Source: Bradyrhizobium sp. sBnM-33 (GTDB lineage Bacteria; Pseudomonadota; Alphaproteobacteria; Rhizobiales; Xanthobacteraceae). From it: a stretch of 64,000 nt of DNA. Positions 8,758 through 52,433 of the stretch are shown here, piece by piece. The notes under the pieces were generated by a model. It made no database searches. It saw only the letters and a program-made list of their open reading frames with translations, and had not been told where the DNA came from. The position numbers and the translations under genes are program-made. The stretch is taken from NCBI RefSeq assembly GCF_032917945.1, contig NZ_CP136624.1, positions 7,192,001-7,256,000 of the forward strand, read 5' to 3'. The first letter of the stretch is position 1; every line of letters begins with the position of its first letter.

Positions 8758-8762
8758 CTGGG

Positions 8763-35197: not shown

Positions 35198-35294
35198 TTG
35201 CTTTGCTCGCGCTAATATTAGAAGAGAATTTCGCGATGACGGATGCGGGGCGGCGTGACACGCGGCGCCGTCCCGCATCCTTCTCGCGCGGAGA

Positions 35295-36560: not shown

Positions 36561-37250
36561 TTACACGGACAGGAATTTCGAGACTTGCGCGGCATCGACG
36601 CTGTCGCGCGGCTCGTCGCGGACGATCTCGCCGTTCTCGATGACCAGCACGCGGTCGGCAATGTCGAGCGCAAAGCTCAACACCTGTTCGGAGACTACGA
36701 TCGACAGGCCGCGCTCGTCGCGGATGCGCTTCAGGGTGCGCGCCATGTCCTTGATGATCGACGGCTGGATACCCTCGGTCGGTTCGTCCAGCAGCAGCAC
36801 TTTTGGCTTGGTGGCGAGCGCGCGGGCGATCGCGAGCTGCTGTTGCTGGCCGCCGGAAAGATTGCCGCCGCGGCGGCCTTTCATCTCCAGCAGCACCGGG
36901 AATAATTCGTAGATGTCCTCGGGCACCTCCGAGCCGCCCGACACCACGAGGCCGGTCTCGATGTTCTCCTTCACCGTCATGGTCGAAAAGATCATGCGGC
37001 CCTGCGGCACGTAGGCGAGACCCTTGGCGACGCGCTCGTAGCTCGGCAGCGTGCTGAGCTCGGTGCCTTCCATGCTCACCGAGCCGCTCTTGGACGGCAC
37101 GATGCCCATCAGCGACTTCATCAGCGTGGTCTTGCCCATGCCGTTGCGGCCCATGATCGCAACGATCTCGTTGGGCGCGACGGATACATCGAGCCCGTGC
37201 AGCACTTCGCTCTGGCCGTAGGCGACGTGAAGATTCGAAATAGCCAGCAT
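36561..37250 (-). CDS. urtE: Urea/short-chain amide ABC transporter ATP-binding protein UrtE
   Basis: A 229-residue LivF-type ATPase. Walker A is GRNGMGKTT, signature LSGGQQQQLAIARAL, Walker B KVLLLDEPTEG. The DEPTEGIQPSII segment and length are diagnostic of UrtE. ATG 37250 has GGGAG about seven bases upstream; the open frame to 37304 crosses a repeat. It pairs with UrtD to power UrtBC. Confidence 0.95.
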   Translation of the reverse strand: MLAISNLHVAYGQSEVLHGLDVSVAPNEIVAIMGRNGMGKTTLMKSLMGIVPSKSGSVSMEGTELSTLPSYERVAKGLAYVPQGRMIFSTMTVKENIETGLVVSGGSEVPEDIYELFPVLLEMKGRRGGNLSGGQQQQLAIARALATKPKVLLLDEPTEGIQPSIIKDMARTLKRIRDERGLSIVVSEQVLSFALDIADRVLVIENGEIVRDEPRDSVDAAQVSKFLSV

Positions 37251-37272
37251 GAACGTGCTCCCTTTAGTTCCT

Positions 37273-37322
37273 GCGCATGATCTTGTCCGGAAACCGGACG
37301 CCACTTTCCGGGATCATGTGCT
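37273..37322. repeat. Short inverted repeat (family H) between urtD and urtE
   Basis: GCGCATGATCTTGTCCGGAA...and TTTCCGGGATCATGTGC arms (GCATGATC/GATCATG, TCCGGAAA/TTTCCGG). This type is widespread in Rhizobiales by recollection. It overlaps the urtD stop and could trim urtE expression relative to urtD. Confidence 0.7.
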
Positions 37323-38076
37323 AATGTCCCAGGTAAACTTCGATCACTTTCGGATCGTTCTTCACCTTCTCCATCGTGCCCTCCGACAGGATCTGGCCCT
37401 GGTGCAGCACCGTGACCTTGTGGGCGATGTCCTCGACGAATTTCATGTCGTGCTCGATGACGAGCACTGAGCGATCCTTGATGATGCGGTTCAAGAGCTC
37501 GGCGGTCTTGGCGCGCTCGCTGACGCTCATGCCGGCGACCGGCTCGTCGAGCATCAGGAGTTCCGGATCCTGGATCAGCAGCATGCCGATCTCGAGCCAT
37601 TGCTTCTGACCGTGGCTGAGCTGATCGGCATAGGTGTCGAGACGATCCTTCAGGAAGATCATCTCGGCGACTTCCTCGATGCGCTGTTTGACGGCATCAT
37701 CGCGCTGGAAGGCGAGTGAGCCGAACACGGTGCGGCCGCGTGGATAGGAAATCTCCAGGTTCTCGAACACCGTCAGATCCTCGAACACTGACGGGGTCTG
37801 AAACTTGCGCCCCACGCCAGTCTGCACGATCTGGTTCTCCTTCAGCTTCGTCAGCTCCTTGCCGCGAAACTGGATCGAGCCTGAGGTCGCCTTGGTCTTT
37901 CCGCAGATCAGGTCGAGCACCGTGGTCTTTCCGGCGCCGTTGGGGCCGATGATGACGCGGATCTCGTTCTCCTCGACATAGAAGGAAAGATTGTTCACCG
38001 CCTTGAAGCCGTCGAAGGACACCGTGAGGGCCTCGACCGCGAGCAGGAAGGGTTTGGGCTGGTGACCGATGAGCAT
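37321..38076 (-). CDS. urtD: Urea/short-chain amide ABC transporter ATP-binding protein UrtD
   Basis: A 251-residue LivG-type ATPase. Walker A is GPNGAGKTT, with the unusual UrtD signature LSHGQKQWLEIGM and Walker B LLMLDEPVAGMS. ATG 38076 has GAGGAG upstream. The start region is an imperfect tandem copy of sequence 57 bases upstream (38120-38157), which creates a 17-codon micro-ORF ending four bases before this ATG. Confidence 0.95.
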   Translation of the reverse strand: MLIGHQPKPFLLAVEALTVSFDGFKAVNNLSFYVEENEIRVIIGPNGAGKTTVLDLICGKTKATSGSIQFRGKELTKLKENQIVQTGVGRKFQTPSVFEDLTVFENLEISYPRGRTVFGSLAFQRDDAVKQRIEEVAEMIFLKDRLDTYADQLSHGQKQWLEIGMLLIQDPELLMLDEPVAGMSVSERAKTAELLNRIIKDRSVLVIEHDMKFVEDIAHKVTVLHQGQILSEGTMEKVKNDPKVIEVYLGH

Positions 38077-38157
38077 GATCTATCTCCTCATTTCGCCAGT
38101 GTGGCATCGGCAACCGAGATGACCGATGAGCATGTCTGCCTCCTCACTCTGCCGGTG
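38063..38157. repeat. Imperfect tandem duplication of the urtD start region
   Basis: Copy A at 38063-38101 and copy B at 38120-38157 both read TGACCGATGAGCATG followed by a purine-rich SD (on the minus strand) and the GCC(A/G)GTG block. They differ by a few substitutions and one indel. The ATGs are exactly 57 bases (19 codons) apart. Confidence 0.8.
38080..38133 (-). CDS. 17-codon micro-ORF upstream of urtD
   Basis: The duplicated start copy gives MLIGHLGCRCHTGEMRR then TAG. It has its own strong SD (AGGAGG, five bases from ATG 38133) overlapping the urtC stop. Its first five residues equal those of UrtD. It is in the same frame as urtD, so only the TAG separates it from a 19-codon N-terminal extension of UrtD. 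It probably couples urtC and urtD translation. Whether the peptide itself matters is unknown. Confidence 0.5.
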   Translation of the reverse strand: MLIGHLGCRCHTGEMRR

Positions 38158-39289
38158 CACCGTCGGCGACGGAATTGCCGGTCCACGCGCCCGACTTTGA
38201 TTTGCGCCATGCCAACAGCCGATCGATACGCGGCTGAACGTAATCAGCCCAGAGTCCCGACAGACCGTTCGGGAAGGCCAGCACGACCGCGATGAACAGC
38301 GCGCCGAGGCCGAACAACCAAAGCTGCGGGAATGATTCCGAAAGGCTGGTTTTGGCAAAATTTACCAGCAGCGCTCCCCACACCGCGCCGAAAATCGACA
38401 TCCGGCCGCCGACTGCGGTGTAGATCACCATTTCGATCGACGGCACGATGCCGACAAAGGACGGCGACATGAACCCGACATTGAGCGCAAACATGGCGCC
38501 CCCTATCGCGGCGAAGATCGCAGCCATGCAGAAGGCGAAAATCTTGAAGTTGGCGACGCTGTAGCCGGAGAAGCGGACGCGATCTTCCTGCTCGCGCATC
38601 GCCACCAGGATGCGGCCAAGCTTTGTCAGCCGGATGAACTGCGCGATGAGGATGCAGCCGAACAGCAGGAACACTTCAAAGAAATAAAGGATGACCTTGG
38701 CGTGGTCCGGCCTGATGTCCCATCCCTTCAGCGTACGCAGGTCGGTCATGCCGTTGATGCCGCCGGTGTAGCCCTGCTGCCCGACGATCAGAATGGTCAG
38801 GATGGCGGCGACGGCCTGGGTGATGATCGCGAAATAGGTGCCGCCGACACGGCGCTTGAACATCGCCGTGCCGATGATCAGGGCGAAGAGGCCTGGGACC
38901 AGGATGATGGCGAGAACGGTGAAGGTGAGACTGTGGAATGGCTGCCAGAACAGCGGCAGCGCAGTGATCTGATTCCAGTCCATGAAATCCGGAATGCCGG
39001 GCGTGGACTGGATCTTGGTGTTCTCCACGCTCGATGCCTCCAGCTTGAGGAACATCGCCATGCAGTAGCCGCCGAGGCCGAAGAACACGCCCTGCCCCAG
39101 GCTCAGGATGCCGCCATATCCCCAGCACAGCACGAGGCCGATCGCGACAAAGGCGTAAGTCAGATACTTCGCGACCAGGTTGAGACGGAACACATCCAGC
39201 GACAGCGGCAGGATCACGAACAGGACCAGACCCAGTGCAACGAAACCAATGAGCTCGGATCGATTGAAGAAGCGCGAGTTGATGATCAT
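38144..39289 (-). CDS. urtC: Urea/short-chain amide ABC transporter permease UrtC
   Basis: A 381-residue LivM-type permease with about ten membrane helices. GYGGILSLGQGVFFGLGGYCMAM near residue 60 and VGGRMSIFGAVWGALLVNF near 300 are UrtC hallmarks. The 40-residue C-terminal tail is polar. It forms the channel with UrtB and lies 17 bases after urtB. Confidence 0.95.
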   Translation of the reverse strand: MIINSRFFNRSELIGFVALGLVLFVILPLSLDVFRLNLVAKYLTYAFVAIGLVLCWGYGGILSLGQGVFFGLGGYCMAMFLKLEASSVENTKIQSTPGIPDFMDWNQITALPLFWQPFHSLTFTVLAIILVPGLFALIIGTAMFKRRVGGTYFAIITQAVAAILTILIVGQQGYTGGINGMTDLRTLKGWDIRPDHAKVILYFFEVFLLFGCILIAQFIRLTKLGRILVAMREQEDRVRFSGYSVANFKIFAFCMAAIFAAIGGAMFALNVGFMSPSFVGIVPSIEMVIYTAVGGRMSIFGAVWGALLVNFAKTSLSESFPQLWLFGLGALFIAVVLAFPNGLSGLWADYVQPRIDRLLAWRKSKSGAWTGNSVADGAPAE

Positions 39290-39306
39290 GACCGTGCCTG
39301 CTTTCG

Positions 39307-40233
39307 CTATTTGCGGACCTTGAGGGCGAACAGCCCCTGCGGCCGCAGCATCAGAATTCCGACGACGGCGAGAAGCGTGAGCACCTTGGCCATCGAGCCC
39401 GACATGAAGAACTCCAGCGTCGACTGGGTCTGCGAGATCGAGAAGGCGGAAGCGATGGTGCCGAGCAGGCTAGCGGCGCCGCCGAACACGACCACCAGGA
39501 AGGTATCGACGATATAGAGCTGGCCTGACGTGGGCCCGGTCGAACCGATCATGGTGAACGCGCTTCCGGCGATGCCGGCGATCCCGCAACCGAGGCCGTA
39601 GGTGTAGCGATCAACTTTTTCGGTATTGATGCCGACGGCCCCGGCCATGATCCGGTTCTGCACGACCGCGCGGACCTGACGGCCCCAGCGCGACTTGTAA
39701 ATGACGTAAGCGACCGCGCACGTGATCGAAACGGTGAGGCCCATCACGAAGATGCCGTTGATCGGCACCTCGATGCTGTCGGTCACCTTGAGCGAGCCCA
39801 GCATCCACTGCGGCAGCTCGACGCCGACTTCGCGCGCGCCGAAGACAGAGCGATAGGCCTGCTGCAGTATCAGGCTGAGGCCCCATGTGGCGAGCAGCGT
39901 GTCGAGCGGGCGCTTGTAGAGATGACGGATCAGCACCCACTCCACCACCATTCCAAGCGCGCCGGAGGCGAGGAAGGCCAGCATCATCGCGAGAAAGAAA
40001 TAGCCGCTGAAAAGACCTGGCAGATAGCTCTGGAATAAGTTCGACGTCATCCAGGTGACGTAGGCCCCTAGGATCATGAACTCGCCATGCGCCATGTTGA
40101 TGACGCCCATCTGGCCGAAGATGATGGCAAGTCCGAGCGCCATCAACACGTAGACGGAAAACAGGATCAGGCCCGCAAAGCCCTGCATGACGAAGATGGA
40201 GCCCAGGTCGCCAATCGAATAGTCGCCGAACAT
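39307..40233 (-). CDS. urtB: Urea/short-chain amide ABC transporter permease UrtB
   Basis: A 308-residue LivH-type permease, eight or so membrane helices, with FGQMGVINMAHGEFMILGAY near residues 40-60 and VVVFGGAASLLGTIASAF near 250. ATG 40233 has GGAG seven bases upstream; the frame open to 40314 adds nothing family-like. About 120 bases separate it from urtA. Confidence 0.95.
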   Translation of the reverse strand: MFGDYSIGDLGSIFVMQGFAGLILFSVYVLMALGLAIIFGQMGVINMAHGEFMILGAYVTWMTSNLFQSYLPGLFSGYFFLAMMLAFLASGALGMVVEWVLIRHLYKRPLDTLLATWGLSLILQQAYRSVFGAREVGVELPQWMLGSLKVTDSIEVPINGIFVMGLTVSITCAVAYVIYKSRWGRQVRAVVQNRIMAGAVGINTEKVDRYTYGLGCGIAGIAGSAFTMIGSTGPTSGQLYIVDTFLVVVFGGAASLLGTIASAFSISQTQSTLEFFMSGSMAKVLTLLAVVGILMLRPQGLFALKVRK

Positions 40234-40353
40234 CTGACTTCTCCGCCGGAGGAAGGTCCCGCGTCGCGAGAGAATTCGCGACGCGGGGTCGTCAAGCGCG
40301 GATTGACGGTCCACGCCAGGGAGCGGTTGAAAAGTTGCGGGAAGGCTCCGCGC

Positions 40354-41613
40354 TTATTGGTAGCCCTTCGGGAACGGATCGGGCTCGATCAGGTCGGCGG
40401 TCTCGAAGATCAGCTCGAACTGACCATCGAGCTTGGCGCGCCCGACGCGGGTCTTCGACCAGAGGTGATGGTTTTCATGGATGCGCACGTAGCCTTCGGG
40501 CGCCTGCTTGAATTCCACGCCGGGCGAAGCGGCTGCGATCTTGTCGACGTCGAAGCTGCCGGCCTTCTCGCAGGTTAACTTCCACAGCCACGGGCCGAGA
40601 TAGCCGGCCTGCGTCACGTCGCCGATCACGGTCTTCTCGCCCCACATCTTCTTGAAGGCGGGAACGAACGTCTTGTTGTTGGCATTGTCGAGCGACTGGA
40701 AGTACTTCATGCAGGCATAGGCGCCCGCGATGTTCTCGCCACCGATGCCGTCGATCTCGTCTTCGGTCACCGAAATCGTCAAGAGCGCCTGTTTCGACAG
40801 GTCGACGCCGGCCGCCTTAAGCTGCTTGTAGAAGGCGACGTTGGAGCCGCCGACCACGTCGGTGAAGATGACATCGGGCTTGGTCAGCTTGATCTTGTTG
40901 ATCACTGAATTGAACTGGGTGCTGCCGAGCGCGTAATATTCTTCGCCGACCACCTTGCCCTTCAGCACGTTCTCGACGTGCTTGCGCGCGATCTTGTTTG
41001 AGGTGCGCGGCCAGATGTAGTCCGAACCGATGAAGAAGAACGATTTGGCGCCCTTCTCCTTGGCGATCCAGTTCAACCCGGCGAGGATCTGCTGGGTCGC
41101 TTCCTGGCCGGTGTAGATGACGTTCTTGGATTGCTCGAGACCTTCATAGAAGGTCGGATAGTACAGCATGCCATTGTACTGCTCGACCACCGGCAGCACC
41201 GCCTTGCGCGAGGCTGAAGTCCAGCAGCCCATGATCGCCGCGACCTTGTCGTTGACGAGCAGCTTCTTGGCTTTTTCCGCAAACGTCGGCCAGTCGCTGG
41301 CGCCGTCTTCCTGGATGAACTTGATCTTGCGCCCGAGCACGCCGCCGGCGGCATTGATCTGCTCGATCGCGAGCTTTTCGGCCTGAATCGAACCCGTCTC
41401 CGAGATCGCCATCGTGCCGGTGGCCGAGTGCAGGATGCCGACGGTGACCTCCGTATCGGTGACCGCGAGACCCGTGGTGTTGACGGTGGCGGTTGCGGGA
41501 CCTGCCCCGAATGAGGGCCGAGGAAGGATCGAAACGAGCGGCAGCGCCGCCGCGCCCATCAGCAGTTTGCGGCGAAGCGGAGACTGCAGGCCCCTGTTTG
41601 GTTCGTCTGACAT
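40354..41613 (-). CDS. urtA: Urea/short-chain amide-binding protein UrtA (FmdD-like)
   Basis: A 419-residue type-I periplasmic binding protein, Peripla_BP_5 (UrtA/FmdD/AmiC) group. A Tat-type leader SPLRRKLLMGAAALP occurs near residues 11-25. The mature region begins DTEVTVGILHSATGTMAISE, the classic UrtA opening. Linkage to formamidase and amidase and the lack of urease genes favour amides as ligand, as for Methylophilus FmdD, though urea is not excluded. ATG 41613 (GGGGTG upstream) is preferred over GTG 41619. First gene of the importer operon. Confidence 0.94.
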   Translation of the reverse strand: MSDEPNRGLQSPLRRKLLMGAAALPLVSILPRPSFGAGPATATVNTTGLAVTDTEVTVGILHSATGTMAISETGSIQAEKLAIEQINAAGGVLGRKIKFIQEDGASDWPTFAEKAKKLLVNDKVAAIMGCWTSASRKAVLPVVEQYNGMLYYPTFYEGLEQSKNVIYTGQEATQQILAGLNWIAKEKGAKSFFFIGSDYIWPRTSNKIARKHVENVLKGKVVGEEYYALGSTQFNSVINKIKLTKPDVIFTDVVGGSNVAFYKQLKAAGVDLSKQALLTISVTEDEIDGIGGENIAGAYACMKYFQSLDNANNKTFVPAFKKMWGEKTVIGDVTQAGYLGPWLWKLTCEKAGSFDVDKIAAASPGVEFKQAPEGYVRIHENHHLWSKTRVGRAKLDGQFELIFETADLIEPDPFPKGYQ

Positions 41614-41669
41614 GAGCACCCCATTTTTGTTCGAGAACGCTTATTGGTCAGGCGAGGATTGCCCAGAAT

Positions 41670-41682: not shown

Positions 41683-41693
41683 GATACGTGGGA

Positions 41694-41713
41694 TTGCGTA
41701 TACTGCACCGCAA
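41694..41713. promoter_or_regulatory. Interrupted dyad TTGCG-N10-CGCAA
   Basis: TTGCG at 41694-41698 and CGCAA at 41709-41713 surround TATACTGCAC. It sits between the TGTGCACTGCACA dyad and the sigma-54-like promoter, in the position of an upstream activator site. Confidence 0.3.
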
Positions 41714-41730
41714 AATAGCGACGTAGGTTT

Positions 41731-41785: not shown

Positions 41786-44700
41786 GTGGCAGGGCGGCAG
41801 CGGATAGACCGCGTAAGGCGCCAATATAACCAATGGGTCGCGAACCAGACGCTGGAAGACTACGCACTCCGCTTCACCGCCAAGAGCGCGCGGCGATGGT
41901 CTGCCGCCCGCGTCGCCAATACCGCGCTTGGCGCGATCTCTTTTCTCGCCCTGGAGGCGATCGGCGGCACCATTACGCTGAATTACGGCGCCATCAATGC
42001 CACCGTTGCCATCCTGGTCGTCAGCGTCATCATCTTCCTCTGCGGCCTGCCGATTGCCTATCATGCCGCCAAATGCGGCATCGATATCGATCTGCTGACC
42101 CGCGGTGCCGGCTTCGGCTATATCGGCTCGACCATCACCTCGCTGATCTATGCTTCCTTCACCTTCATTTTCTTCGCGATCGAGGCGGTTATCATGGCTG
42201 CGGCGCTCGAGATGTGCTTCGGCATCCCGCGGCCGCTCGGCTATCTCATCAGCTCCGTCATCATCATCCCGCTGGTGACTTACGGCATCACGCTGATCAG
42301 CCGCTTTCAATTGTGGACACAGCCGCTCTGGATCGTCCTGCACATTCTCCCCTTCGTTGCGATCGCCTATGCCAATCCCCAATCGTTCACGGAATGGCGG
42401 AAGTTCGCCGGCGAACACGGCGACGCCGGTGGCCATCTCGATCTCCTGTTGTTCGGCACAGCCGCCTCGGTGGTGTTTTCGCTTGTTGCGCAGATCGGCG
42501 AGCAGGTCGACTTCCTGCGGTTTCTGCCCCGCGACCGCCGCACGTCGCGGACGTCGTGGTGGATTGCGCTGCTCAGCGCCGGCCCCGGCTGGATCATTTT
42601 CGGCGCGCTCAAGCTGCTCCTTGGCTCGTTCCTCGCCTACTTCGCGCTGAGCCATGGCGTCTCCAGCGAGCAGGCCGCCGAGCCCGCGCATATGTATCTC
42701 GAGGCGTTCCGTTACGTGCTGTCGCAGCCGGACATGGCGCTGGCGCTGACCGGCACCTTCGTCATTCTCTCGCAGATCAAGATCAACGTCACCAACGCCT
42801 ATGCCGGCTCGATCGCCTGGTCGAACTTCTTCTCGCGGCTGACGCATAGCCATCCCGGCCGTGTGGTGTGGCTCGTCTTCAACGTCTTGGTGGCGCTGCT
42901 ATTGATGGAGATCGGCGTCTACAAGGCGCTGGAGCAGACGCTGGCGCTTTACTCCAACGTGGCGATTGCCTGGGTCGGCGCGCTGGTCGCCGATCTCGTC
43001 GTCAATAAGCCGCTCGGCTTGCGGCCGCAACACATCGAGTTCAAGCGCGCGCATCTCTACGACATCAATCCGGTCGGCGTCGGCGCCATGACCATCGCCA
43101 CTGTGGTCTCGATCAGCGCGTTCTACGGCCTGTTCGGGCCGACGGCGAAGGCGCTGTCCGCCTTCGTCGCGCTCGCTGTCGCTTTCATCGCCGCGCCGCT
43201 GATCGCCTGGGCGACCGACGGAAAATATTACATCGCGCGAAAGCCGAAGCGGAGCTGGCAGAACCTGGAATCGATTCAGTGCTGTATCTGCGAGCATTCG
43301 TTCGAGCCGGAGGACATGGCCTCCTGCCCCGCCTATGCCGGGCCGATCTGCTCGCTGTGCTGTACGCTCGATGCGCGCTGCCACGATCTCTGCAAGCCGC
43401 ATGCGCGGGCCGGCGCGCAGGTCTCGGACATGCTAGGGAAACTGTTGCCGGAGGCGATCTACACGCGGATCAATTCGCAGTTCGGGCATTATCTCGGCGT
43501 GTTCGCGGTATCCGCCGGCCTCGTCGGGCTGACGCTGGGGCTGATCTATCTGCAGACCTCGGCGACGATTCCCAGCGGAGATTTTGCGCCGGCGGACGTG
43601 CTGTGGAAGGTGTTCTTCGCGCTCACCATCATCATCGGCGTGGTGGCGTGGCTTTTCGTGCTGGCGCAGGAGAGCCGCCGTGCGGCGGAGGCGGAAACGC
43701 GGCGGCAGACGGCGCTGTTGATCCAGGAAATCGACGCGCACAAGCGCACCGATGCCGAGTTGCAGCGCGCCAAGGAAGTCGCGGAGTCCGCCAACCTCGC
43801 CAAGAGCCGCTATGTGGTGGGATTGAGTCACGAGCTGCGCTCGCCGCTGAACGCCATCAGCGGCTATGCGCAATTGCTGGAGCAGGATTCCAACCTCCCC
43901 GCAAAGCCCCGCGACCAAGTGCGGGTGGTCCGGCGCAGCGCCGACCATTTGTCAGGACTGATCGACGGCATCCTCGATATCTCCAAAATCGAAGCAGGCC
44001 GGCTTTATCTGTCGCGCGACGAGGTCCGCCTGAGCGAATTTCTCGATCAGCTCGTCGGGATGTTTCGCGTTCAGGCCGCTGCCAAGGGCATCGACTTCAT
44101 CTTCAAGCGGCCTTCGGTGCTGCCGCTCGTCGTCTATGCCGATGAGAAACGGCTGCGACAGGTTCTGATCAACCTGCTGTCGAATGCACTGAAGTTTACG
44201 CAGACCGGCAGCGTGCAGTTCGTCGTGCATTACCGCAGCCCCGTTGCGGAGTTCGAGATCATCGATACTGGCCCCGGCATCCAGCCCGACGACCTCGAAC
44301 GCATTTTTGCGCCGTTCGAGCGCGGCGCGCTTGGCGTCTCGCAGCCGCAGACCGGCACCGGGCTTGGATTGACCATCAGCCGACTCCTCGCCGGCGTGAT
44401 GGGCGGCGACATCAGGGTAACGAGCGAGGTCGGTAGCGGCAGCACGTTTCGGGTGAAAATCCTGCTGTCGGAAGTGACCAATCCGACGCGGATCGCGCCG
44501 GTGCAGGCGCCGATCTTCGGTTACCACGGGCCGCGCAAGACGATACTGATCACCGACGATGATCCCACTCACCGCGATCTCCTGCGCGAGGTGCTCACGC
44601 CGCTCGGCTTTATCCTGCTCAGCGCGCCCGATGGACCCGGCTGCCTCGCCCTGGCGCAGCATTGCCGGCCTGATCTGTTCCTGCTCGACATCTCGATGGC

Positions 44701-45157
44701 CGGCATGGACGGATGGACGGCTGCAGAAACGCTGCGCGCGAGCGGCCATCACCAGGCCCGTATGCTGATGGTGTCGGCGAGCGCGCTTGAAGCGCATGGC
44801 GCGCCGTTGGCGCAACCGTTCCACGACGGTTACCTGATGAAGCCGATCGATATTCCGAAGCTGCTCGAAACCATCCGGCAATTGCTGAAGCTCGAATGGC
44901 AGTATGAGGCCGGCGAAGTCCCTGCCCCACATTGGAGGCCGGAGACAGGCTCGCGGCCGCCAGTAAAACATGTCGAGGAACTGATCGGACTCGGGCAACT
45001 GGGTTACGTCCGCGCGATCCAGGTCAAGCTCGACGAGATCGGCAGCGATTATCCTGAACACGCCGACTTCGTGTCGCAAATGCGCGCATTGATCGACCGC
45101 TTCGATCTCGATCAGTACATGGCGACGCTCAAAACCCTGCACAGCTATGATCATTGA
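41786..45157 (+). CDS. Hybrid histidine kinase with an NCS1-type permease sensor domain
   Basis: A 1123-residue fusion. Residues ~20-475 form a multi-helix region like NCS1 purine/cytosine/hydantoin permeases. 499-539 is a knuckle with nine cysteines (C499, 500, 502, 514, 522, 525, 526, 532, 536). 570-627 contains two more helices, 630-670 a coiled linker, then HisKA (H682 in SHELRSPLNA) and HATPase (N800, DTGPG 827-831, GTGLGL 857-862). A receiver domain follows (D924/D925, D968, K1019) with a ~100-residue helical tail. GTG 41786 has AGGAG at six bases; the frame upstream overlaps urtA antisense. It likely senses a transported nitrogen compound, as CbrA does with a different permease type. 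It overlaps the regulator gene by 11 bases. Confidence 0.88.
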   Translation: MAGRQRIDRVRRQYNQWVANQTLEDYALRFTAKSARRWSAARVANTALGAISFLALEAIGGTITLNYGAINATVAILVVSVIIFLCGLPIAYHAAKCGIDIDLLTRGAGFGYIGSTITSLIYASFTFIFFAIEAVIMAAALEMCFGIPRPLGYLISSVIIIPLVTYGITLISRFQLWTQPLWIVLHILPFVAIAYANPQSFTEWRKFAGEHGDAGGHLDLLLFGTAASVVFSLVAQIGEQVDFLRFLPRDRRTSRTSWWIALLSAGPGWIIFGALKLLLGSFLAYFALSHGVSSEQAAEPAHMYLEAFRYVLSQPDMALALTGTFVILSQIKINVTNAYAGSIAWSNFFSRLTHSHPGRVVWLVFNVLVALLLMEIGVYKALEQTLALYSNVAIAWVGALVADLVVNKPLGLRPQHIEFKRAHLYDINPVGVGAMTIATVVSISAFYGLFGPTAKALSAFVALAVAFIAAPLIAWATDGKYYIARKPKRSWQNLESIQCCICEHSFEPEDMASCPAYAGPICSLCCTLDARCHDLCKPHARAGAQVSDMLGKLLPEAIYTRINSQFGHYLGVFAVSAGLVGLTLGLIYLQTSATIPSGDFAPADVLWKVFFALTIIIGVVAWLFVLAQESRRAAEAETRRQTALLIQEIDAHKRTDAELQRAKEVAESANLAKSRYVVGLSHELRSPLNAISGYAQLLEQDSNLPAKPRDQVRVVRRSADHLSGLIDGILDISKIEAGRLYLSRDEVRLSEFLDQLVGMFRVQAAAKGIDFIFKRPSVLPLVVYADEKRLRQVLINLLSNALKFTQTGSVQFVVHYRSPVAEFEIIDTGPGIQPDDLERIFAPFERGALGVSQPQTGTGLGLTISRLLAGVMGGDIRVTSEVGSGSTFRVKILLSEVTNPTRIAPVQAPIFGYHGPRKTILITDDDPTHRDLLREVLTPLGFILLSAPDGPGCLALAQHCRPDLFLLDISMAGMDGWTAAETLRASGHHQARMLMVSASALEAHGAPLAQPFHDGYLMKPIDIPKLLETIRQLLKLEWQYEAGEVPAPHWRPETGSRPPVKHVEELIGLGQLGYVRAIQVKLDEIGSDYPEHADFVSQMRALIDRFDLDQYMATLKTLHSYDH

Positions 45158-46076
45158 ACCAAAAAAGCGCGACGTCGCTCTCGTCGTCGACGACTCTCCG
45201 GAGACGCTGCGGCTCTTGACCGACGCACTCGACGGCGCAGGCATGACCGTCATGGTCGCACTCGACGGCGCTTCCGCCATGCGGATCATCGACCAGATCA
45301 CGCCTGACATCGTGCTGCTCGACGCCGTGATGCCGGGGATGGATGGATTCGAGACCTGCCGGCGGCTGAAGCGCGACGCCGGGCTCGATCATGTGCCGAT
45401 CATCTTCATGACGGGCCTTGCGGAAACCGAGCACATCGTGCGTGGGCTGGAGGCGGGCGGCGTCGACTATGTAACAAAACCGATCGCGGTCGAGGAGATG
45501 CTGGCGCGCATCCGCGTTCACCTCGCCAACGCCCGGCTAACCCAGAGCGCCCGCGCCGCACTCGACGTCTCCGGCCGCTATCTGCTCGCGGTGAATGCCG
45601 CGGGCAAGATCATGTGGGCGACGCCGCAGGCGCAAAAGCTGCTGTCGGACACGCTTTCCGCCGGCGGCGACGACGACGTGGTGCTGCCGGACCCGATTCC
45701 GCAATGGCTCGATGAGGCGCGCAAGGGCAAGGCCGGCACGAAGACGACCGTCATGGCAGCGTTACCCGGCAACGAGCAGCTTCGCCTGCAGTATATGGGG
45801 AAGCTCGGCTCGAACGAATTCCTGCTGCGGCTGGCGAGAGATTCCGGCGCGGATACACCATCGGAATTCTCCAGCGAACTTGGCCTCACGACGCGCGAGG
45901 GCGAGGTGCTGTCGTGGCTGTCCAAGGGCAAGACCAACCGCGACATCGCGCAAATCTTGGGACTCTCGCCGCGCACCGTCGACAAGCATCTCGAGCAGAT
46001 CTACTCCAAGCTCGGCGTCGAGAACCGCACCGCGGCGGCGGCGATCGCCGTGAATGCGAGGAACAGGAAGGGGTGA
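45147..46076 (+). CDS. LuxR-type response regulator
   Basis: A 309-residue regulator. The receiver domain is at 10-125 (D15/D16, phospho-acceptor D59 in VLLDAVMPG, K111), the middle region (~130-240) is PAS-like (YLLAVNAAGKIMWATPQAQ), and a LuxR/FixJ helix-turn-helix is at ~245-305 (LTTREGEVLSWLSKGKTNRDIAQILGLSPRTV). Its ATG lies inside the kinase gene (11-base overlap), so it is the cognate partner. Probable targets are the divergent urt-fmd-ami operon and perhaps the nitrate genes. Confidence 0.92.
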   Translation: MIIEPKKRDVALVVDDSPETLRLLTDALDGAGMTVMVALDGASAMRIIDQITPDIVLLDAVMPGMDGFETCRRLKRDAGLDHVPIIFMTGLAETEHIVRGLEAGGVDYVTKPIAVEEMLARIRVHLANARLTQSARAALDVSGRYLLAVNAAGKIMWATPQAQKLLSDTLSAGGDDDVVLPDPIPQWLDEARKGKAGTKTTVMAALPGNEQLRLQYMGKLGSNEFLLRLARDSGADTPSEFSSELGLTTREGEVLSWLSKGKTNRDIAQILGLSPRTVDKHLEQIYSKLGVENRTAAAAIAVNARNRKG

Positions 46077-46183: not shown

Positions 46184-48889
46184 CTAGCTGTTCGCGACGG
46201 CCAATTTCTCTGGCATGGCATTCGGCTCCGCGTGCGCGATCAAGCGCTTCAATTCCGGAATGCAGGAGCCGCAATTGGTGCCGGCCTTCAGCTTCGCGCC
46301 TATATCGGCCGCCGAACACGCCCCCGCCGCGATGGCCTCGCAGATCGTGTTGCGGCCGACGCCGAAGCAGGCGCAGACGATCGGGCCGGTGTTGGCGAGG
46401 CCGTCGGCCGATTTGCCTGACAGCAGCATGCGGCGCTGGTCGTGGTCCAGCGTATCCGCCGCAAACAGGCTCTTGACCACGTTCCAGTCGCCAGCGTCGT
46501 GCGCCGGGCCGATGAAAAAGCAGGTGTCGATACGGTCGCCGTCAAAGGATGCGGCGCGGTAGACGCCGCCGCCAAAATCCTTGTATTCGGCGAGATCGTT
46601 GCGAACGAAAGATTTCAGCCAGGATTGCCAGCCGGCGACATCGGCATTGTCAGCGAACAAGTAGCCATGGCCGCCGTTGACAGCAACGCGCGCCACCCAG
46701 GCATGCGCGGGCAGTTCGAGCGGCTTGCGCGACAGCGCGAAGCCGCGGAAGACATATTCATAGGGAGTGATCGAGGCCGGCGTCGCCTTGTTCTCGGGCT
46801 GGCCGGAGAACGGATCGGTGACGGGCGCCACCAGCGAGCCGACGCGCGCGCCGGTCGCATTGGCCTCGCTCCAGTGGATCGGCGCGAACAGCATGCCGCG
46901 CTGCTGCCGTTCGCTGACCATAACGCGGAGCGTGCATTGTCCGTAATCGGTCGTGACCCGCGCGAAATCGCCATCGGCGACGCCGTATTTTGCCGCGTCG
47001 TCCGGATGGACCTCGACGAACGGCTCCGGCAGATGCTGGCCGAGCCGCGGGCTCTCGCCCGTGCGGGTCATGGTGTGCCACTGGTCGCGGATGCGGCCGG
47101 TGTTGAGCCGCAGCGGCCGCGCCGCGCTGATCTCAGTTCGCAGCGCCGGAATTTCCGGCGCGATGAAACGGGCTCTGAAATCGTTGGCGAAGAAACCGCC
47201 TTCGGCGAAGAAGCGCGCTTGCGGCTCGGTGCCCTGCCGTATCGGCCATTGCACCGGCGCCATCGCGTCGAAATCGCTGTCCGACAGCGATTGCAGCGCG
47301 CCTATGTCGAAATCGCGCGCGCCTTCGTTCTCGAACGCCGAGAGCGCGGCATGCTCGCGAAAAATATTCGCCGCCGAGGTGAAGCTGAAGGCCGTGCCGA
47401 AGCCGAGGCGCCTGGCGACCTCGCCCATGATCCACCAATCCGGCTTGGCTTCGCCCGGCGGGGTAAGAAACGCGCGCTGCCGCGAGATGCGCCGCTCCGA
47501 GTTGGTCACCGTGCCGGATTTCTCGCCCCAGGCCTGTGCCGGCAACAGCACATGCGCGCCCGCGTCCACCGTGTCGTTGGAGATCACGTTCTCGGAAACC
47601 ACGAACAGATCGAGCTTCTTCAGCGCGTCGCGAACGCCATCGGCGTTCGGCAGAGAGACCGCCGGATTGGTGCCCATCACCCACAACGCCCTAATCTCGC
47701 CGCGCGCAATCGCCTCGAACATCTGCACCGCCTTCAAGCCCTCATGGGTGGCGATGCGCGGCGCCTTCCAGAACCGCCGCACGCGGTCGATATCCGGCGG
47801 CGTGAAGCCCATATGGGCGGCCAACTGGTTGGCAAGCCCGCCGACCTCACGCCCGCCCATCGCATTGGGCTGCCCGGTGAGCGAGAACGGCGACGCGCCC
47901 GGCAGGCCGATCCGCCCGGTCGCGAGGTGGCAATTGAGGATGGCGTTGACCTTGTCGGTGCCCTGCGCCGACTGGTTGACGCCCTGTGAATAGAGCGTCA
48001 CGACGCGCGGCGTGTTGGCAAACATCTGGAAGAACGTCGCGACGTCCTGCTCGGACAGGCCGGTCGCCAGTGCGGTCGCGCCGACGCTGCCCGCGATGCT
48101 GCGTGCGCGGGCGACGGCACCGTCGAAGCCGGTGGTGTGGAGTTCGATATAGTCGCGGTCGAGCGCGCCATTGTCCGCGAGGTAAACCAGCAAGCCGCTG
48201 AACAGCGCGGTATCGGTGCCTGGCTTCAGGCCGAGGAACAGATCGTCGTCGCCGACGGTGTCGGTCCGCCGCGGATCGATCACGATGACACGCGCGCCCC
48301 GCTTCTGCTTGTTGACGAGCATGCGCTGATACAGCACTGGATGGCACCAGGCCGCGTTGGAGCCGACCAGCACCAGCAAATCGGCCTCGTCGAGATCCTC
48401 GTAACATCCCGGCACGGTGTCGGCGCCAAAAGCGCGGCGGTGGCCGGCGACGGACGAGGCCATGCACAGCCGCGAATTGGTGTCGACATTGGCGCTGCCG
48501 ATAAACCCCTTCATCAGCTTGTTGGCGACGTAGTAGTCCTCCGTCAGCAACTGACCGGATAGATAGAAGGCGACCGCACCCGGGCCGTCGCGCGCGATAA
48601 TGTGCTGGAAACGGTGCGCGACATGGTCGAGCGCGTCGCTCCACGCCACGCGCTCCATGGTTCCTTTGCCGCAGCGGATCATTGGATAGAGCAGCCGGTT
48701 CGCTAGCCCGAGCGTCTCGCCAAGCGCCGAACCCTTCGAGCACAGCCGGCCGAAATTGGCGGGATGCTCGGCATCGCCTGAGATCCCCGCCCCGCCCCGC
48801 CCGTCCGGCGTCGCCAGAATGCCGCAACCGACCCCGCAATAGGCGCAGGTGGTGCTGACAGCACGGAGATCGGGATCGACGACGGTCAT
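46184..48889 (-). CDS. nasC: Assimilatory nitrate reductase catalytic subunit
   Basis: A 901-residue molybdopterin enzyme. N-terminal [4Fe-4S] ligands are C15, C18, C22 and C50 (CAYCGVGC...LCSKG). The Mo-bis-MGD domains and the C-terminal dinucleotide domain (RLNTGRIRDQWHTMTRTG) follow. At the C-terminus is a BFD-type [2Fe-2S] domain (CACFGVGRNTICEAI ... NCGSC), as in NADH-linked assimilatory enzymes. It reduces nitrate to nitrite in the cytoplasm. It is the last gene after bjgb and flp, 13 bases downstream of flp. Also called nasA in other genera. Confidence 0.95.
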   Translation of the reverse strand: MTVVDPDLRAVSTTCAYCGVGCGILATPDGRGGAGISGDAEHPANFGRLCSKGSALGETLGLANRLLYPMIRCGKGTMERVAWSDALDHVAHRFQHIIARDGPGAVAFYLSGQLLTEDYYVANKLMKGFIGSANVDTNSRLCMASSVAGHRRAFGADTVPGCYEDLDEADLLVLVGSNAAWCHPVLYQRMLVNKQKRGARVIVIDPRRTDTVGDDDLFLGLKPGTDTALFSGLLVYLADNGALDRDYIELHTTGFDGAVARARSIAGSVGATALATGLSEQDVATFFQMFANTPRVVTLYSQGVNQSAQGTDKVNAILNCHLATGRIGLPGASPFSLTGQPNAMGGREVGGLANQLAAHMGFTPPDIDRVRRFWKAPRIATHEGLKAVQMFEAIARGEIRALWVMGTNPAVSLPNADGVRDALKKLDLFVVSENVISNDTVDAGAHVLLPAQAWGEKSGTVTNSERRISRQRAFLTPPGEAKPDWWIMGEVARRLGFGTAFSFTSAANIFREHAALSAFENEGARDFDIGALQSLSDSDFDAMAPVQWPIRQGTEPQARFFAEGGFFANDFRARFIAPEIPALRTEISAARPLRLNTGRIRDQWHTMTRTGESPRLGQHLPEPFVEVHPDDAAKYGVADGDFARVTTDYGQCTLRVMVSERQQRGMLFAPIHWSEANATGARVGSLVAPVTDPFSGQPENKATPASITPYEYVFRGFALSRKPLELPAHAWVARVAVNGGHGYLFADNADVAGWQSWLKSFVRNDLAEYKDFGGGVYRAASFDGDRIDTCFFIGPAHDAGDWNVVKSLFAADTLDHDQRRMLLSGKSADGLANTGPIVCACFGVGRNTICEAIAAGACSAADIGAKLKAGTNCGSCIPELKRLIAHAEPNAMPEKLAVANS

Positions 48890-48902
48890 GCAGGCAACCG
48901 GA

Positions 48903-50120
48903 TCATGCGGCTTCCGAACGGATCGCGAGCGAGCGGCCGAACATCATGTCGCCACGGATTCGGGCTGTCGGCTGACGCGTGCGGATCAATTCGAGGTACC
49001 AGAGCGCGTCGGCGACATCGCCGATCAGCACCGCGCCGGTCAATCGCCCATCCGCGATCACCAGTTTCTTGTAGGTGCCGTGGTTAATGTCGGAGAGCAC
49101 GATGGCCTCGCTGCCGTCGCCGCCCATGAAATCGCCTGCGGAGAACACGCTGACGCCGGAAACTTTCAGATTGGTTGCGACGATGCTGCCGGTATAGGCC
49201 GCCTCACGTCCCGCGAGATGCCGCGCCAGCACCCTCGCCTGCTCATAGGCCGGCTCGACCAAGCCGTAGCAGACGCCGCGATGTTCGGCGCACTCACCGA
49301 TCGCGAAGACATCTGCCGCGTCGGTCTGCATGACATCGTCGACCACGATCCCGCGGTTGACGGCAATGCCGGCTTCCTTCGCCAGCGCGATATTCGGACG
49401 AATGCCTGCGGCAAAGATCACGGCGTCGGCATCGATCCGACGTCCGTCCGCCAGTTCGACGCTCTCGACACGCTTCTCGCCGTGGACGCGCGCGGTGTTG
49501 GCGTTGAGCAGGATCTCGATGCCCTTGCGCTCGACAAGCGATTTCAGAAGTTCGGCCGCGGGCGCATCGAGTTGACGCTCCATCAGGCGGTCCATCAGAT
49601 GCACCAGTGTCACCGGTGCGCCGGCCTTGGCGAGGCCATAGGCCGCCTCGAGGCCCAGCAGTCCACCGCCAACCACCACCACGCGCTTTTTCTGCGCGGC
49701 CAGTGTCAGCAGCAGATCGACGTCGCGGCTGTCGCGAAACGTATGCACGCCGGCGAGATCGGCGCCGGGTATATTGAGCCGCAGCGGCGACGAGCCGGTG
49801 GTCAGCACCAGTTTCGAAAACGGAATGCTCTCGTCGTTCTCGATCTTGAGCTCACGGCGGCCGACATCGATCTCGGTCGCCACGCAACCATACTTCAAGG
49901 TAACGCCGCGATCGCGCCACCAGGACGCCGGCCGCAGCTCGATGTCCTGCGACGTGGTTTCGCCGGCCAGCACCGATGACAACAACACGCGATTATACGC
50001 GAGCCGCGGTTCGTCGCCGATCACGGCGATGGCGTAGCGCCCGAGCGCTATTTTCGCCAGCTCGTCAACCAGACGCGCGGCGGCCATTCCATTGCCGACG
50101 ATGACCAGCGGCTCACTCAC
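48903..50120 (-). CDS. flp: FAD-dependent NAD(P)H oxidoreductase of the nitrate system
   Basis: A 405-residue flavoprotein. The FAD motif IVGNGMAAARL is at 7-17, the NAD(P)H motif VVVVGGGLLGLEAA in the middle, and VFAIGECAEH is near 270. It matches the N-terminal half of NirB and the Flp protein of Bradyrhizobium, thought to pass electrons to NasC and to re-reduce the haemoglobin. GTG 50120 is used because similarity starts at SEPLVIVGNG and AAGGA overlaps the bjgb stop; the frame to 50261 is antisense-frame noise. No iron-sulfur or sirohaem domains follow, so it is not a nitrite reductase. Confidence 0.9.
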   Translation of the reverse strand: MSEPLVIVGNGMAAARLVDELAKIALGRYAIAVIGDEPRLAYNRVLLSSVLAGETTSQDIELRPASWWRDRGVTLKYGCVATEIDVGRRELKIENDESIPFSKLVLTTGSSPLRLNIPGADLAGVHTFRDSRDVDLLLTLAAQKKRVVVVGGGLLGLEAAYGLAKAGAPVTLVHLMDRLMERQLDAPAAELLKSLVERKGIEILLNANTARVHGEKRVESVELADGRRIDADAVIFAAGIRPNIALAKEAGIAVNRGIVVDDVMQTDAADVFAIGECAEHRGVCYGLVEPAYEQARVLARHLAGREAAYTGSIVATNLKVSGVSVFSAGDFMGGDGSEAIVLSDINHGTYKKLVIADGRLTGAVLIGDVADALWYLELIRTRQPTARIRGDMMFGRSLAIRSEAA

Positions 50121-50131
50121 GTGTTGCGTCC

Positions 50132-50557
50132 TTACTCCGCGACCAAAGGCTGGCCGTAGGCTTCGGAAATCATGAAACCGGACAGTGTGCCGTAGGCTGC
50201 GGTCCATGCCGCAGCGACTTCGGGCGTCCATGCCACGCCAAGTCCCTTCTCCAGCGTCCACAGCAATGCGCCGCCGACGACGGGATAATGCTCGGGTTTG
50301 GCGCCATAGCTGACATGGCGCTTTGCCAATGCACTCGCAGCGGGCAGCACGGATTCAAGATTGCTCAATCCGTTCACCACCACCGCCAGCGTCGCCATCA
50401 GCTTCTTGCGCTGCTCTTTCATGTCGGTGGGAAACATCGCCTTCACCGTTGGCGCGACTTCGAACAGACGATCGTAGAATATGACGGCCGCCTGCTCTGA
50501 AATCGGCACGACTTTGGCGAAGCTCTCCTGAACCAGATTGATTTGTGTTGGATTCAC
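50132..50557 (-). CDS. bjgb: Single-domain bacterial haemoglobin
   Basis: A 141-residue globin like Vitreoscilla haemoglobin. B10 Y28 (FYDRLF), CD1 F42 and proximal F8 H81 (AKRHVSYG) are present. The protein stops after the globin fold, with no reductase domain. In B. diazoefficiens the homologue Bjgb detoxifies nitric oxide formed during nitrate assimilation, with Flp as reductant. It is 12 bases upstream of flp. GAGAG lies before the ATG. Confidence 0.92.
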   Translation of the reverse strand: MNPTQINLVQESFAKVVPISEQAAVIFYDRLFEVAPTVKAMFPTDMKEQRKKLMATLAVVVNGLSNLESVLPAASALAKRHVSYGAKPEHYPVVGGALLWTLEKGLGVAWTPEVAAAWTAAYGTLSGFMISEAYGQPLVAE

Positions 50558-50569
50558 CGAAACTCTCCT

Positions 50570-50631
50570 CGCGTGTTAAGGGCAATCCAGTTGGTCGTGC
50601 GGCGGGAACATTAGTTCACCGCCAACACGCG
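50570..50631. promoter_or_regulatory. Inverted repeat in the nrtC-bjgb gap
   Basis: CGCGTGTT (50570-50577) and AACACGCG (50624-50631) are perfect arms around 46 bases. An inner GGCG...CGCC pair on the minus strand can extend the stem. It lies exactly where narK would be expected. It may be an mRNA leader structure for bjgb, a terminator-like stem, or a deletion scar; no U-tract follows. Confidence 0.4.
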
Positions 50632-50645
50632 AATAAGAGAGGCAG

Positions 50646-51440
50646 CTACGCCGCCTCGACGAAGCGATGCCGCTCGTAGAGGAACTCGAGCACACGCTGC
50701 CGGCACTTGAGGTAGCCGGGATTGGTCGCGAGCTCGAGCCGCTTGCGCGGACGCGCCAGCGGCACCTCCAGCACCTCGCCGATCCGCGCGCTCGGGCCGT
50801 TGGTCATCATCACGATGCGGTCCGACAGCAGCACGGCCTCGTCGACGTCATGCGTGATCATCAGGATGGTGTTGCCGAGCTTCTGGTGCAGCGCCATCAC
50901 CGAGTCCTGCAGATGTGCGCGGGTTAGCGCGTCGAGCGCGCCGAACGGCTCGTCGAGCAACAGCACCTTCGGCTCCATCGCCAGCGCACGGGCAATGCCG
51001 ACGCGCTGCTTCATGCCACCGGAAATTTCCGACGGGCGCTTGTCCTTGGCGTGCGCCATCTGCACCAGATTGAGATTATGCATCACCCAGGCGTCGCGCT
51101 CGGCGCGGCTCTTGGTTGACGAAAACACCTTGTCGACGCCGAGCTTGACGTTTTCGTACACCGTCAGCCACGGCAGCAGGCTGTGGTTCTGGAATACTAC
51201 GGCGCGGTCCGGTCCCGGCGAATTGACCTCGCGGTTTTCCAAGAGCACGCCGCCATTGGTAGCGTCGGTGAGGCCAGCCACGATGTTGAGCAGCGTGGAC
51301 TTGCCGCAGCCGGAATGACCGATGATCGAGACGTATTCGCCCTTCTCGATCGTCAGGTTGATGTCCTTCAGCACCTCTGTGGTGGCGTTGCCGCGGGTGA
51401 AGGTCTTGTCGATGTGGTCGAGCTTCAGATAGGCCTGCAT
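50646..51440 (-). CDS. nrtC: Nitrate ABC transporter ATP-binding protein
   Basis: A 264-residue ATPase. Walker A is GHSGCGKST at 41-49, signature SGGMKQRVGIARAL, Walker B VLLLDEPFGALD. The VVFQNHSLLPWLTVYENV and GPSARIGE segments are typical of NrtC/NrtD/CmpD. It lacks the fused binding-protein domain found in cyanobacterial NrtC. It powers NrtB and lies 12 bases after nrtB. Confidence 0.94.
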   Translation of the reverse strand: MQAYLKLDHIDKTFTRGNATTEVLKDINLTIEKGEYVSIIGHSGCGKSTLLNIVAGLTDATNGGVLLENREVNSPGPDRAVVFQNHSLLPWLTVYENVKLGVDKVFSSTKSRAERDAWVMHNLNLVQMAHAKDKRPSEISGGMKQRVGIARALAMEPKVLLLDEPFGALDALTRAHLQDSVMALHQKLGNTILMITHDVDEAVLLSDRIVMMTNGPSARIGEVLEVPLARPRKRLELATNPGYLKCRQRVLEFLYERHRFVEAA

Positions 51441-51452
51441 GACATGTGTCCT

Positions 51453-52370: not shown

Positions 52371-52433
52371 TGAAGTTGTATCTCCGTGTTTCAATGAGCG
52401 GGCCGCACGCAACAGCGCGCGGCCCGGGCTTGA

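Follow-up and report, generated by a model that had tools for sequence, protein, structure and literature searches.

Organization of the locus

A 64,000-nucleotide stretch of contig NZ_CP136624.1 of Bradyrhizobium sp. sBnM-33 (hereafter, the window) contains a gene pair that we analyze here as a candidate sensor-regulator system for small amides and urea. The host genome is 9.18 Mb in size, and its best matches are Bradyrhizobium. The first gene (positions 41786-45157, + strand) is an open reading frame (ORF) of 1123 codons with a GTG start. Its product joins an NCS1-like permease domain, regarded here as the sensor (residues 1-481; 41786-43228, +), to an eight-cysteine linker (residues 499-536; 43280-43393, +), two further helices that lead into the kinase and are seen in AlphaFold2 secondary structure (residues ~565-594 and 601-630; 43478-43675, +), and HisKA, HATPase_c, and receiver domains matched by Pfam (residues 673-1031; 43802-44878, +). 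The second gene (45147-46076, +) overlaps the kinase ORF by 11 bases and encodes a response regulator of 309 residues, in which a receiver and a LuxR/GerE domain, matching the Pfam models Response_reg and GerE, flank a middle part of ~120 residues with no Pfam match.

On the opposite strand, a divergent operon begins with a gene for an amide-type, UrtA-like substrate-binding protein (40354-41619, -; TIGR03407, 529.5 bits against a cut-off of 492.75). It is followed by the ABC transporter genes urtB, urtC, urtD, and urtE (36561-40314, -), of which UrtE lies above the NCBIfam cut-off of TIGR03410, and the other three are named from their position and conservation across loci rather than from a family scan. 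The operon continues with fmdA for formamidase (35295-36524, -; NF045496, 756.8 bits, cut-off 500), a gene for an FmdB-like small zinc-ribbon protein (34850-35200, -; PF09723, Zn_ribbon_8), and a gene for an AmiE-like aliphatic amidase (33557-34597, -; PF00795, CN_hydrolase), the name amiE being taken from an earlier reading of the window made from its sequence alone (hereafter, the original prediction). The original prediction had described a 1123-residue permease-kinase with an overlapping LuxR-type regulator opposite urtABCDE-fmdA-fmdB-amiE, and ORFs, Pfam, and NCBIfam agree with that description.

The first protein is a hybrid histidine kinase with intact phospho-sites. HisKA (673-738), HATPase_c (786-894), and Response_reg (920-1031) all match Pfam; H682 and the key residues of the N, G1, and G2 boxes are present in 42 of 42 homologues, and the receiver residue D968 is present in 40, with a gap in the other two, which are presumably the two short forms described below. 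What had been called a cysteine knuckle is a segment with cysteines at 499, 502, 514, 522, 525, 526, 532, and 536 (C-x2-C-x11-C-x7-C-x2-CC-x5-C-x3-C), each of them invariant in 42/42 homologues. A model of residues 487-631 built from 18 sequences (predicted local distance difference test score, 87) shows short strands in the linker; a structure search with the linker model gave no significant match (best E 0.86), with RING, PHD, and C1 fingers among the non-significant matches, and a second search was taken up by the two helices that follow. We infer that the linker is likely a zinc-binding domain, and it occupies the place held by STAC in CbrA and CrbS. A STAC-named match was absent from the Pfam scan of the kinase, for which it was not checked whether Pfam holds a STAC model. 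The two helices after the linker probably lie in the membrane.

Predicted fold and pocket of the sensor domain

The original prediction had placed the N-terminal half among the NCS1 permeases and had proposed a search with PF02133 as a check. The check itself failed: residues 1-481 match no Pfam model at E <= 10, PF02133 included, and PF02133 has zero matches across the whole genome of the host. A direct sequence search of the PDB likewise gave no recognition of the permease half, and no SSF match, as expected of an SLC5 (SSS) domain, was found in the kinase by Pfam at E <= 1. The assignment is nevertheless supported by the predicted fold, whose nearest structures are the NCS1 transporters CodB and Mhp1 (LeuT-type fold), together with an intermediate sequence. 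In the structure ranking, NCS1 came first and SLC5 structures lower, which agrees with the preference of the original prediction for an NCS1-type over an SLC5 fold.

The intermediate is a standalone NCS1 permease (L072:8949-12168, genome G193; L and G numbers denote loci and genomes), the nearest unfused relative of the sensor domain that was found. It matches PF02133 at 3.6e-9, above the cut-off, and TIGR00800 at 2.5e-16, below the cut-off of that model. The profile of the kinase family matches L072 with a probability of 99.9 over 442 columns, as against only 12% for a direct comparison with single-sequence CodB. The gene after the L072 permease carries two CN_hydrolase stretches and a UrtA-like match, and the permease may be an amide or nitrile transporter. 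The fusion of permease and kinase is not a matter of chance, because at least 8000 sequences, fragments included, match residues 1-640 at E <= 0.001; across 19 diverse members, the sensor domain is 53-67% identical to that of L051.

Pocket residues were read from a sequence alignment to CodB and compared in 41 loci; about half of the rows of the NCS1 alignment (L097-L126) were disregarded, being short ORFs or in the wrong frame. In the column of Mhp1 Gln121, which was placed from its spacing to Trp117, the sensor holds E133. The CodB pocket residues used as reference, and the statement that an aromatic pair sandwiching the substrate is conserved through the NCS1 family, come from available sections of PMC9379551 (papers are cited by PubMed Central (PMC) number, each in the sections available). 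By alignment, the Arg216-Tyr285 pair of CodB is kept as R245-Y339, and the columns of the Trp108/Phe204 sandwich hold F129 (L in one clade) and L233, so that the family-wide aromatic pair is present only in part. CodB Gln105 corresponds to T126 and Ala207 to Q236, and the Na2 residues Thr278/Thr279 correspond to K332/I333, which are invariant. All of these positions, the R245-Y339 pair included, are invariant in the 41 loci, except for F129, which is L in one urea clade; E133, L233, Q236, K332, and N334 do not vary between amide- and urea-linked sensors, and T336 is M or A in some. L072 agrees with the sensors in having the E and Q236, no aromatic residue at 233, and a basic side chain at 332. 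As aligned, the pocket would suit a small, ring-free, polar ligand, and the Na2 site appears to be lost. As far as the alignment shows, only half of the NCS1 aromatic sandwich that stacks a nucleobase ring is left, and the pocket thus lends no support to ligands of the nucleobase kind.

Linkage to amide and urea genes

Among 299 Pseudomonadota genomes, we found 42 fused loci in 38 genomes (the sample set); an initial listing comprised 43 genomes, and a fragment of 53 residues (G236) as well as standalone permeases that matched weakly were excluded from it. A second set of 80 named loci, which overlaps the first (L153 appears to be the contig of L038), includes Marinobacter, Alcanivorax, Stutzerimonas, Pseudomonas, Achromobacter, Methylobacterium, Devosia, Psychromonas, and Colwellia. 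The 299 genomes contain 34 FmdA genes over the NF045496 cut-off, and 30 of these lie within 15 kb of the kinase, at a median distance of 5.4 kb. Two of the four unlinked genes stand on one contig of G111, which probably continues the contig of the kinase, and the other two (G196 contig 15, and G114) have no kinase nearby. Counted by genome and uncorrected for relatedness, 30 genomes have FmdA and the kinase, 1 has FmdA only, 8 have the kinase only, and 260 have neither.

The surroundings of the kinase are of amide type in 30 of the 42 sample loci and of urease/urt type in 10, with two loci ending at a contig edge; the corresponding figures for the named loci are 59/80 amide-type, 13/80 urea-type, and 8/80 other, five of these eight lying at contig ends. 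The remaining three (L169, L176, and L205) have full flanks with no relevant neighbor and a urease alpha gene elsewhere in the genome, urtA being on another contig in the genomes of L169 and L176 and ~16 kb away in that of L205. The kinase is divergent from urtA in 32/42 sample and 67/80 named loci, and a LuxR regulator follows it in 40/42 and 76/80, respectively. The proposals that the kinase has its own regulator and co-occurs with urt, fmd, and ami genes are borne out by these counts. Because urease/urt clusters account for the 10 sample and 13 named loci given above, urea and short-chain amides together are the likely ligand class. Urea and amides are thus retained from the list of ligands in the original prediction, and hydantoins and nucleobase breakdown products are without support. 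Sensing of the latter two was dropped: urt, fmd, ami, ure, and nasA (the last in 3 loci) make up the labeled clusters that recur in at least 3 of 45 loci, several other clusters carrying no label, and hydantoinase or allantoinase genes were not searched for.

The urea-type cluster in L068 has ureD, ureA, ureB, ureC, ureF, and ureG together with a UreJ-type gene (Pfam); in the eight urea-type sample loci with UrtA, that protein is 35-40% identical to UrtA of the window, and amide-type UrtA is at least 68% identical. One amide-type and one urea-type copy are found together in G158, G225, and G246. On a tree of the 42 sensor domains, the urea label requires 4 changes, at least 2 of which are forced by well-supported branches. 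In two short forms (L069 and L071), the kinase has ~885 residues and lacks the receiver; genes for an AmiS/UreI channel and formamidase are nearby, and no UrtA, UrtB, or UrtC match was found in their 19-kb locus. Since these forms have AmiS/UreI and formamidase in place of Urt, the constant element of the linkage is the substrate class and not the transporter.

Several further observations concern individual loci. In L069 (4083-10656) and L071, a separate receiver-kinase-like ORF and a receiver-bearing regulator ORF are present, and the LuxR regulator and operator are absent. In the alphaproteobacterial urea-type loci L054 and L061, a gene for a secreted-looking protein of ~630 residues (~8146-10050, -) lies between kinase and urtA. 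L096 (G028:C1:3362000-3379000) has a second, lone amide-type UrtA, 80% identical to that of the window, with no matches to urtB-E or the kinase nearby.

A conserved palindrome as predicted operator

The region between kinase and urtA contains the palindrome GATACGTGGGATTGCGTATA (41683-41702, strandless), which the original prediction had not seen and which is new here; we predict it to be an operator on the basis of conservation, hold-out, and controls. We compiled 93 divergent kinase/urtA intergenic regions, of which 69 were left after near-copy removal and were used for k-mer counts and hold-out. TACG-N8-CGTA is present in 42 of the 69 regions and in 0 in four shuffled sets. The conserved 20-base palindrome is TATACGTCA-N2-TGACGTATA, and the consensus of the palindromic matrix is tATACGTCAatTGACGTATa. 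The matrix score exceeded the 99% shuffle level in 92/93 regions (68/69 after de-duplication), that of the window included, L051 being the one divergent locus without a site. In hold-out halves, which were not fully blind since the seed of the matrix was drawn from the full set, 35/35 and 33/34 sites were found, each ranking first or second within its whole locus.

With a matrix made from amide-type loci, the highest-scoring site was recovered in each of the 7 divergent urea-type loci, and it lay above threshold in 6/7. In 13 loci where urtA and kinase are present without being closely divergent, the best site lies <=200 bp upstream of urtA in 10 (L054, L061, L063, L064, L065, L068, L173, L182, L200, and L204). 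The best scores of whole shuffled loci were 13.9 at the 95% level, 17.4 at the 99% level, and 18.3 at maximum; measured against these levels, the sites of L065 (12.2) and L202 (16.0) are weak. In L200, sites upstream of kinase, urtA, and urtC score 22.1, 22.3, and 21.3, each above the null maximum. That locus, from a Burkholderiales metagenome-assembled genome, also shows GGDEF-like and other ORFs that split urtB/urtC, and another ORF between urtA and kinase (L200:1441-6215 and 8670-9974). In the genomes of L169, L176, and L205, where the kinase is unlinked, the urtA promoters score 31.1, 24.5, and 26.8.

Promoters outside the kinase-associated operons were used as controls; they were hand-picked from a list, and the 99% null for 2.1 kb was 10.6. 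The second urt operon in 20 kinase-bearing genomes gave a best score of 13.3 and one of 11.0, the rest being <=9.4; 18 urtA promoters from kinase-free genomes reached 9.4 at best, and 20 longer loci without the kinase (among them L096, from a kinase-bearing genome) reached 12.7. In a beta clade, the variant TACGCC-N4-GGCGTA scores 7.6-12.2, which is not significant alone, and this clade may use a changed palindrome of that form. A second, weaker palindrome-like box, reading GCA-N5-CGnA, was observed two bases past the operator on the urtA side (L064:16674, L068:396, and L258:1271), and its position suggests two regulator dimers in tandem.

The recognition helix of the regulator varies with the operator half-sites. 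The residue before KHL, a base-contact position in NarL-type proteins, is N in 54 of 55 loci in which both half-sites are TACGT; where both are TACGC (31 loci), it is D, T, K, or H in 28. These counts were not de-duplicated, five regulators in which either the helix motif or the frame could not be located were skipped, and 14 of the sites, among them the weak ones of L060, L062, and L065, were assigned by us outside close intergenic regions. Fifteen loci with mixed half-sites (9 D and 6 N) were kept out of the association. The regulator of the window has D279 at this position and one half-site of each kind in its operator, and the helix of L051 reads TINAHLA.

A candidate promoter of the kinase is suggested by the motif TAnnnT, which stands at an offset of 21 bp from the operator on the kinase side in 27 of 66 de-duplicated regions, against a mean of 1.02 over 55 offsets; on the urtA side, the commonest offsets hold 6 and 5. 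At this spacing, the operator would lie close to position -43 relative to the kinase start of transcription. In the window, the candidate -10 element is TAGGTT (41724-41729, +), 21 bp from the end of the operator. A sigma-70-like match overlapping the operator was dropped, TAnnnT at offset 21 being better supported.

Proposed mechanism and alternative explanations

The computed results are the architecture, the predicted fold, the association with amide and urea genes, and a conserved palindrome that favors kinase-bearing operons. Taken together, they are best explained, with good probability, by a sensor and regulator dedicated to small amides and urea. In the mechanism that we propose, the NCS1-fold half would serve as a receptor, and perhaps also as a transporter, in which binding of urea or a short-chain amide changes the conformation of the sensor. 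The change would pass through the eight-cysteine linker and the two extra helices to the kinase, and phosphate would move from H682 to D968 of the internal receiver and from there, probably by way of a histidine phosphotransfer step, to the LuxR-type regulator. A regulator dimer bound to the palindrome would then activate urtABCDE-fmdA-fmdB-amiE and probably also its own operon. The ligand, its direct binding in the pocket, the signal path, binding of regulator to palindrome, and the sign of regulation are thus inferred parts of the scheme. Control of the divergent urt/fmd/ami operon by the pair, as the original prediction had it, is supported by gene arrangement and palindrome, and we hold this prediction to be very likely correct. 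Assignment of the ligand to the urea/amide class is likely, and direct binding of that ligand in the NCS1 pocket is somewhat less so, albeit still probable.

Three other explanations accept part of the same evidence. The pair might regulate the operon while the permease half responds not to the ligand but to how active or how loaded the Urt transporter or UrtA is, or to another membrane cue. Sensing of PstSCAB transporter activity by PhoR provides a model for this. The frequent divergent pairing with urtA, in 32/42 and 67/80 loci, would suit a physical partnership, and the amide- and urea-type pocket residues do not differ. However, the short forms have an AmiS/UreI channel and no UrtA, UrtB, or UrtC match in their 19-kb locus, three sensors are not linked to urt within 10 kb, and the sensor domain keeps its 53-67% identity (19 members) and NCS1-like predicted fold, so we consider sensing of Urt unlikely. 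A general sensor of nitrogen status, for which the palindrome would be a common nitrogen-control site and the amide linkage one output among others, is less probable still. The pair of the window also borders a nitrate-assimilation cluster, which would fit such a role, but nasA is found in only 3/45 loci, the palindrome is weak at the 18 kinase-free urtA promoters (best 9.4) and the 20 second urt operons (13.3), and hold-out sites were best or second-best within their locus. The cluster itself (46184-53816) adjoins the regulator on the opposite strand and contains molybdopterin nitrate reductase-like and NAD(P)/FAD reductase-like genes, a globin-like ORF (50132-50557), and nitrate ABC transporter genes; the family scan of this cluster covered two ABC transporter ORFs.

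In a third explanation, the permease half would itself take up urea or amides, as a true transceptor whose signaling reports flux rather than binding. The fold and the R245-Y339 pair (Arg216-Tyr285 in CodB; PMC9379551) are kept, the SLC5 domain of CbrA alone takes up histidine according to the available part of PMC13022988, and the NCS1 permease of L072, the nearest standalone relative found, has a gene with two CN_hydrolase stretches as its neighbor. On the other hand, the Na2 threonines of CodB (Thr278/Thr279) align with the invariant K332/I333, for which reason CodB-like Na+ coupling is unlikely, although proton coupling is still possible. In addition, the operon already has a five-gene ABC importer, and the transporter pathway is closed in the Ks-Amt5 sensor, as described in excerpts of PMC5764959. 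We regard the transceptor as a possibility to be taken seriously, but a less probable one than a receptor that responds to binding.

A number of observations weigh against the explanation preferred here, a dedicated receptor-type sensor with its regulator. Mhp1 leads the other LeuT-fold proteins by little (25.4 vs 23.9), a second Mhp1 entry (2jln) falls among those proteins at 22.6, and the Pfam NCS1 model has no match to the permease half. No pocket position separates amide- from urea-linked sensors in all three urea clades; column 323, outside the assigned pocket, is the sole position flagged in all three. Because the pockets are alike, one ligand common to both types of sensor, such as urea, is possible, and residues of specificity were not found. 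With regard to the operator, besides the incompletely blind hold-out, two of the 20 second-urt controls (11.0 and 13.3) exceed the 99% null of 10.6, the site is weak or missing in L051, L060, L162, L184, L065, and the short forms L069 and L071, and the best site lies by the kinase in L170 and L202 and inside the regulator gene in L201. Covariation of helix and half-site is not proven because the tree, with 6 site changes, 4 helix changes, and 2 supported independent pairs, has too few independent switches. A scan of the host genome for the exact pattern gave 3 matches per strand, the same as for a control pattern, so that a wider regulon cannot be read from it.

The sensor-regulator pair is real, widespread, and, as far as searches of the open-licence PMC literature go, undescribed: no description of NCS1 or purine-cytosine permease kinases, of urt/fmd regulators, or of the motif was found there. 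It would bring another transporter fold into the role of transporter-kinase. Its family numbers at least thousands of sequences, which carry domain labels in databases but are not explained by any of the papers found. With ligand class, regulon, and operator named, sensing by binding and sensing by transport become testable with simple ligands. The pair also offers the missing regulator for formamidase and amide operons, as well as a candidate amide- or urea-responsive promoter.

Comparison with known systems

Control of amiE in Pseudomonas depends on AmiC/AmiR, a binding protein and an RNA-binding antiterminator. The likeness to the present system lies in an amide-responsive control of an amidase operon, whereas a membrane two-component system and a DNA palindrome are predicted here; the original prediction had proposed that this system takes the place of AmiC/AmiR. 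CbrB, the partner of CbrA, is an NtrC-type regulator. The original prediction had named CbrA as the known analogue, but CrbS/CrbR, RpuS/RpuR, and Ks-Amt5 are closer. CbrA/CbrB of Pseudomonas responds to histidine, and CbrA resembles our kinase as a transporter-kinase transceptor whose Na2 site holds a Lys (K196; PMC13022988, in part). It differs in its SLC5, STAC, and PAS domains, and here the Na2-site Lys (K332) comes from transmembrane helix 8 by alignment. CodB and Mhp1 are unfused NCS1 transporters, whereas the present domain is kinase-fused and its pocket is substituted.

Operons of this kind have been encountered before. The SIMBAL study (PMC3098086) drew attention to a second Urt-like operon in B. 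japonicum, which adjoins the genes for formamidase (blr0972) and amidase (blr0973) and whose probable cargo is amides. P. veronii has such an operon, grows on acetamide and formamide, and lacks amiC/amiR at the locus (PMC13209695), and a urtABCDE operon with LuxR-family two-component genes, including a hybrid kinase in a figure legend, appears in PMC13296017. The function of the fusion and the operator are not described in the available sections of these three papers.

Characterized transporter-kinase fusions are few, namely three SLC5/STAC proteins (PMC9100948) and Ks-Amt5 (PMC5764959), as given in excerpts of both. CrbS/CrbR (acetate) and RpuS/RpuR (pyruvate) share with our pair the fusion of transporter and kinase, a LuxR-family regulator, and genes for one nutrient (PMC5715377, PMC9100948), and CrbS is likewise a hybrid kinase. 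An adjacent cognate regulator for nutrient-use genes, a trait of the SLC5/STAC kinases, is also present here, with control predicted. In contrast to CrbS and RpuS, the domain is of NCS1 and not SLC5 type, the eight-cysteine linker stands in the place of STAC, and the predicted target is amides and urea. CrbR depends on an imperfect inverted repeat between -52 and -36 (PMC5715377), which the predicted operator position of ~-43 resembles, and RpuR needs a direct repeat (PMC9100948); the CrbR box at acs is TACTACCATCGTCGAAT, compared with TATACGTCA-N2-TGACGTATA here. Ks-Amt5 of Candidatus Kuenenia stuttgartiensis is similar in that the domain of a nitrogen-nutrient transporter, joined to a HisKA kinase, has taken on the role of a receptor, with the transport route closed and a new binding site made (PMC5764959). 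It has an Amt/Rh fold, ammonium as ligand, and no linker of the PAS, HAMP, or STAC kind, and its regulator is not identified in the available sections of that paper; our system has an NCS1 fold, a cysteine linker, a hybrid kinase, an adjacent LuxR regulator, and an operator. Beside the SLC5/STAC and Amt proteins, the present family may form a further, independently built class of transporter-receptor kinases, a proposal to which we give an even chance. In this class, NCS1 permeases would have become receptors that recognize urea and short-chain amides, having lost the nucleobase sandwich and the Na2 site and acquired a zinc-finger-like coupler in place of STAC and a private 20-bp operator. The receptor would have moved several times from one type of operon, amide or urea, to the other within the Alpha-, Beta-, and Gammaproteobacteria, and it would supply the regulator missing from urt-fmd-ami operons.

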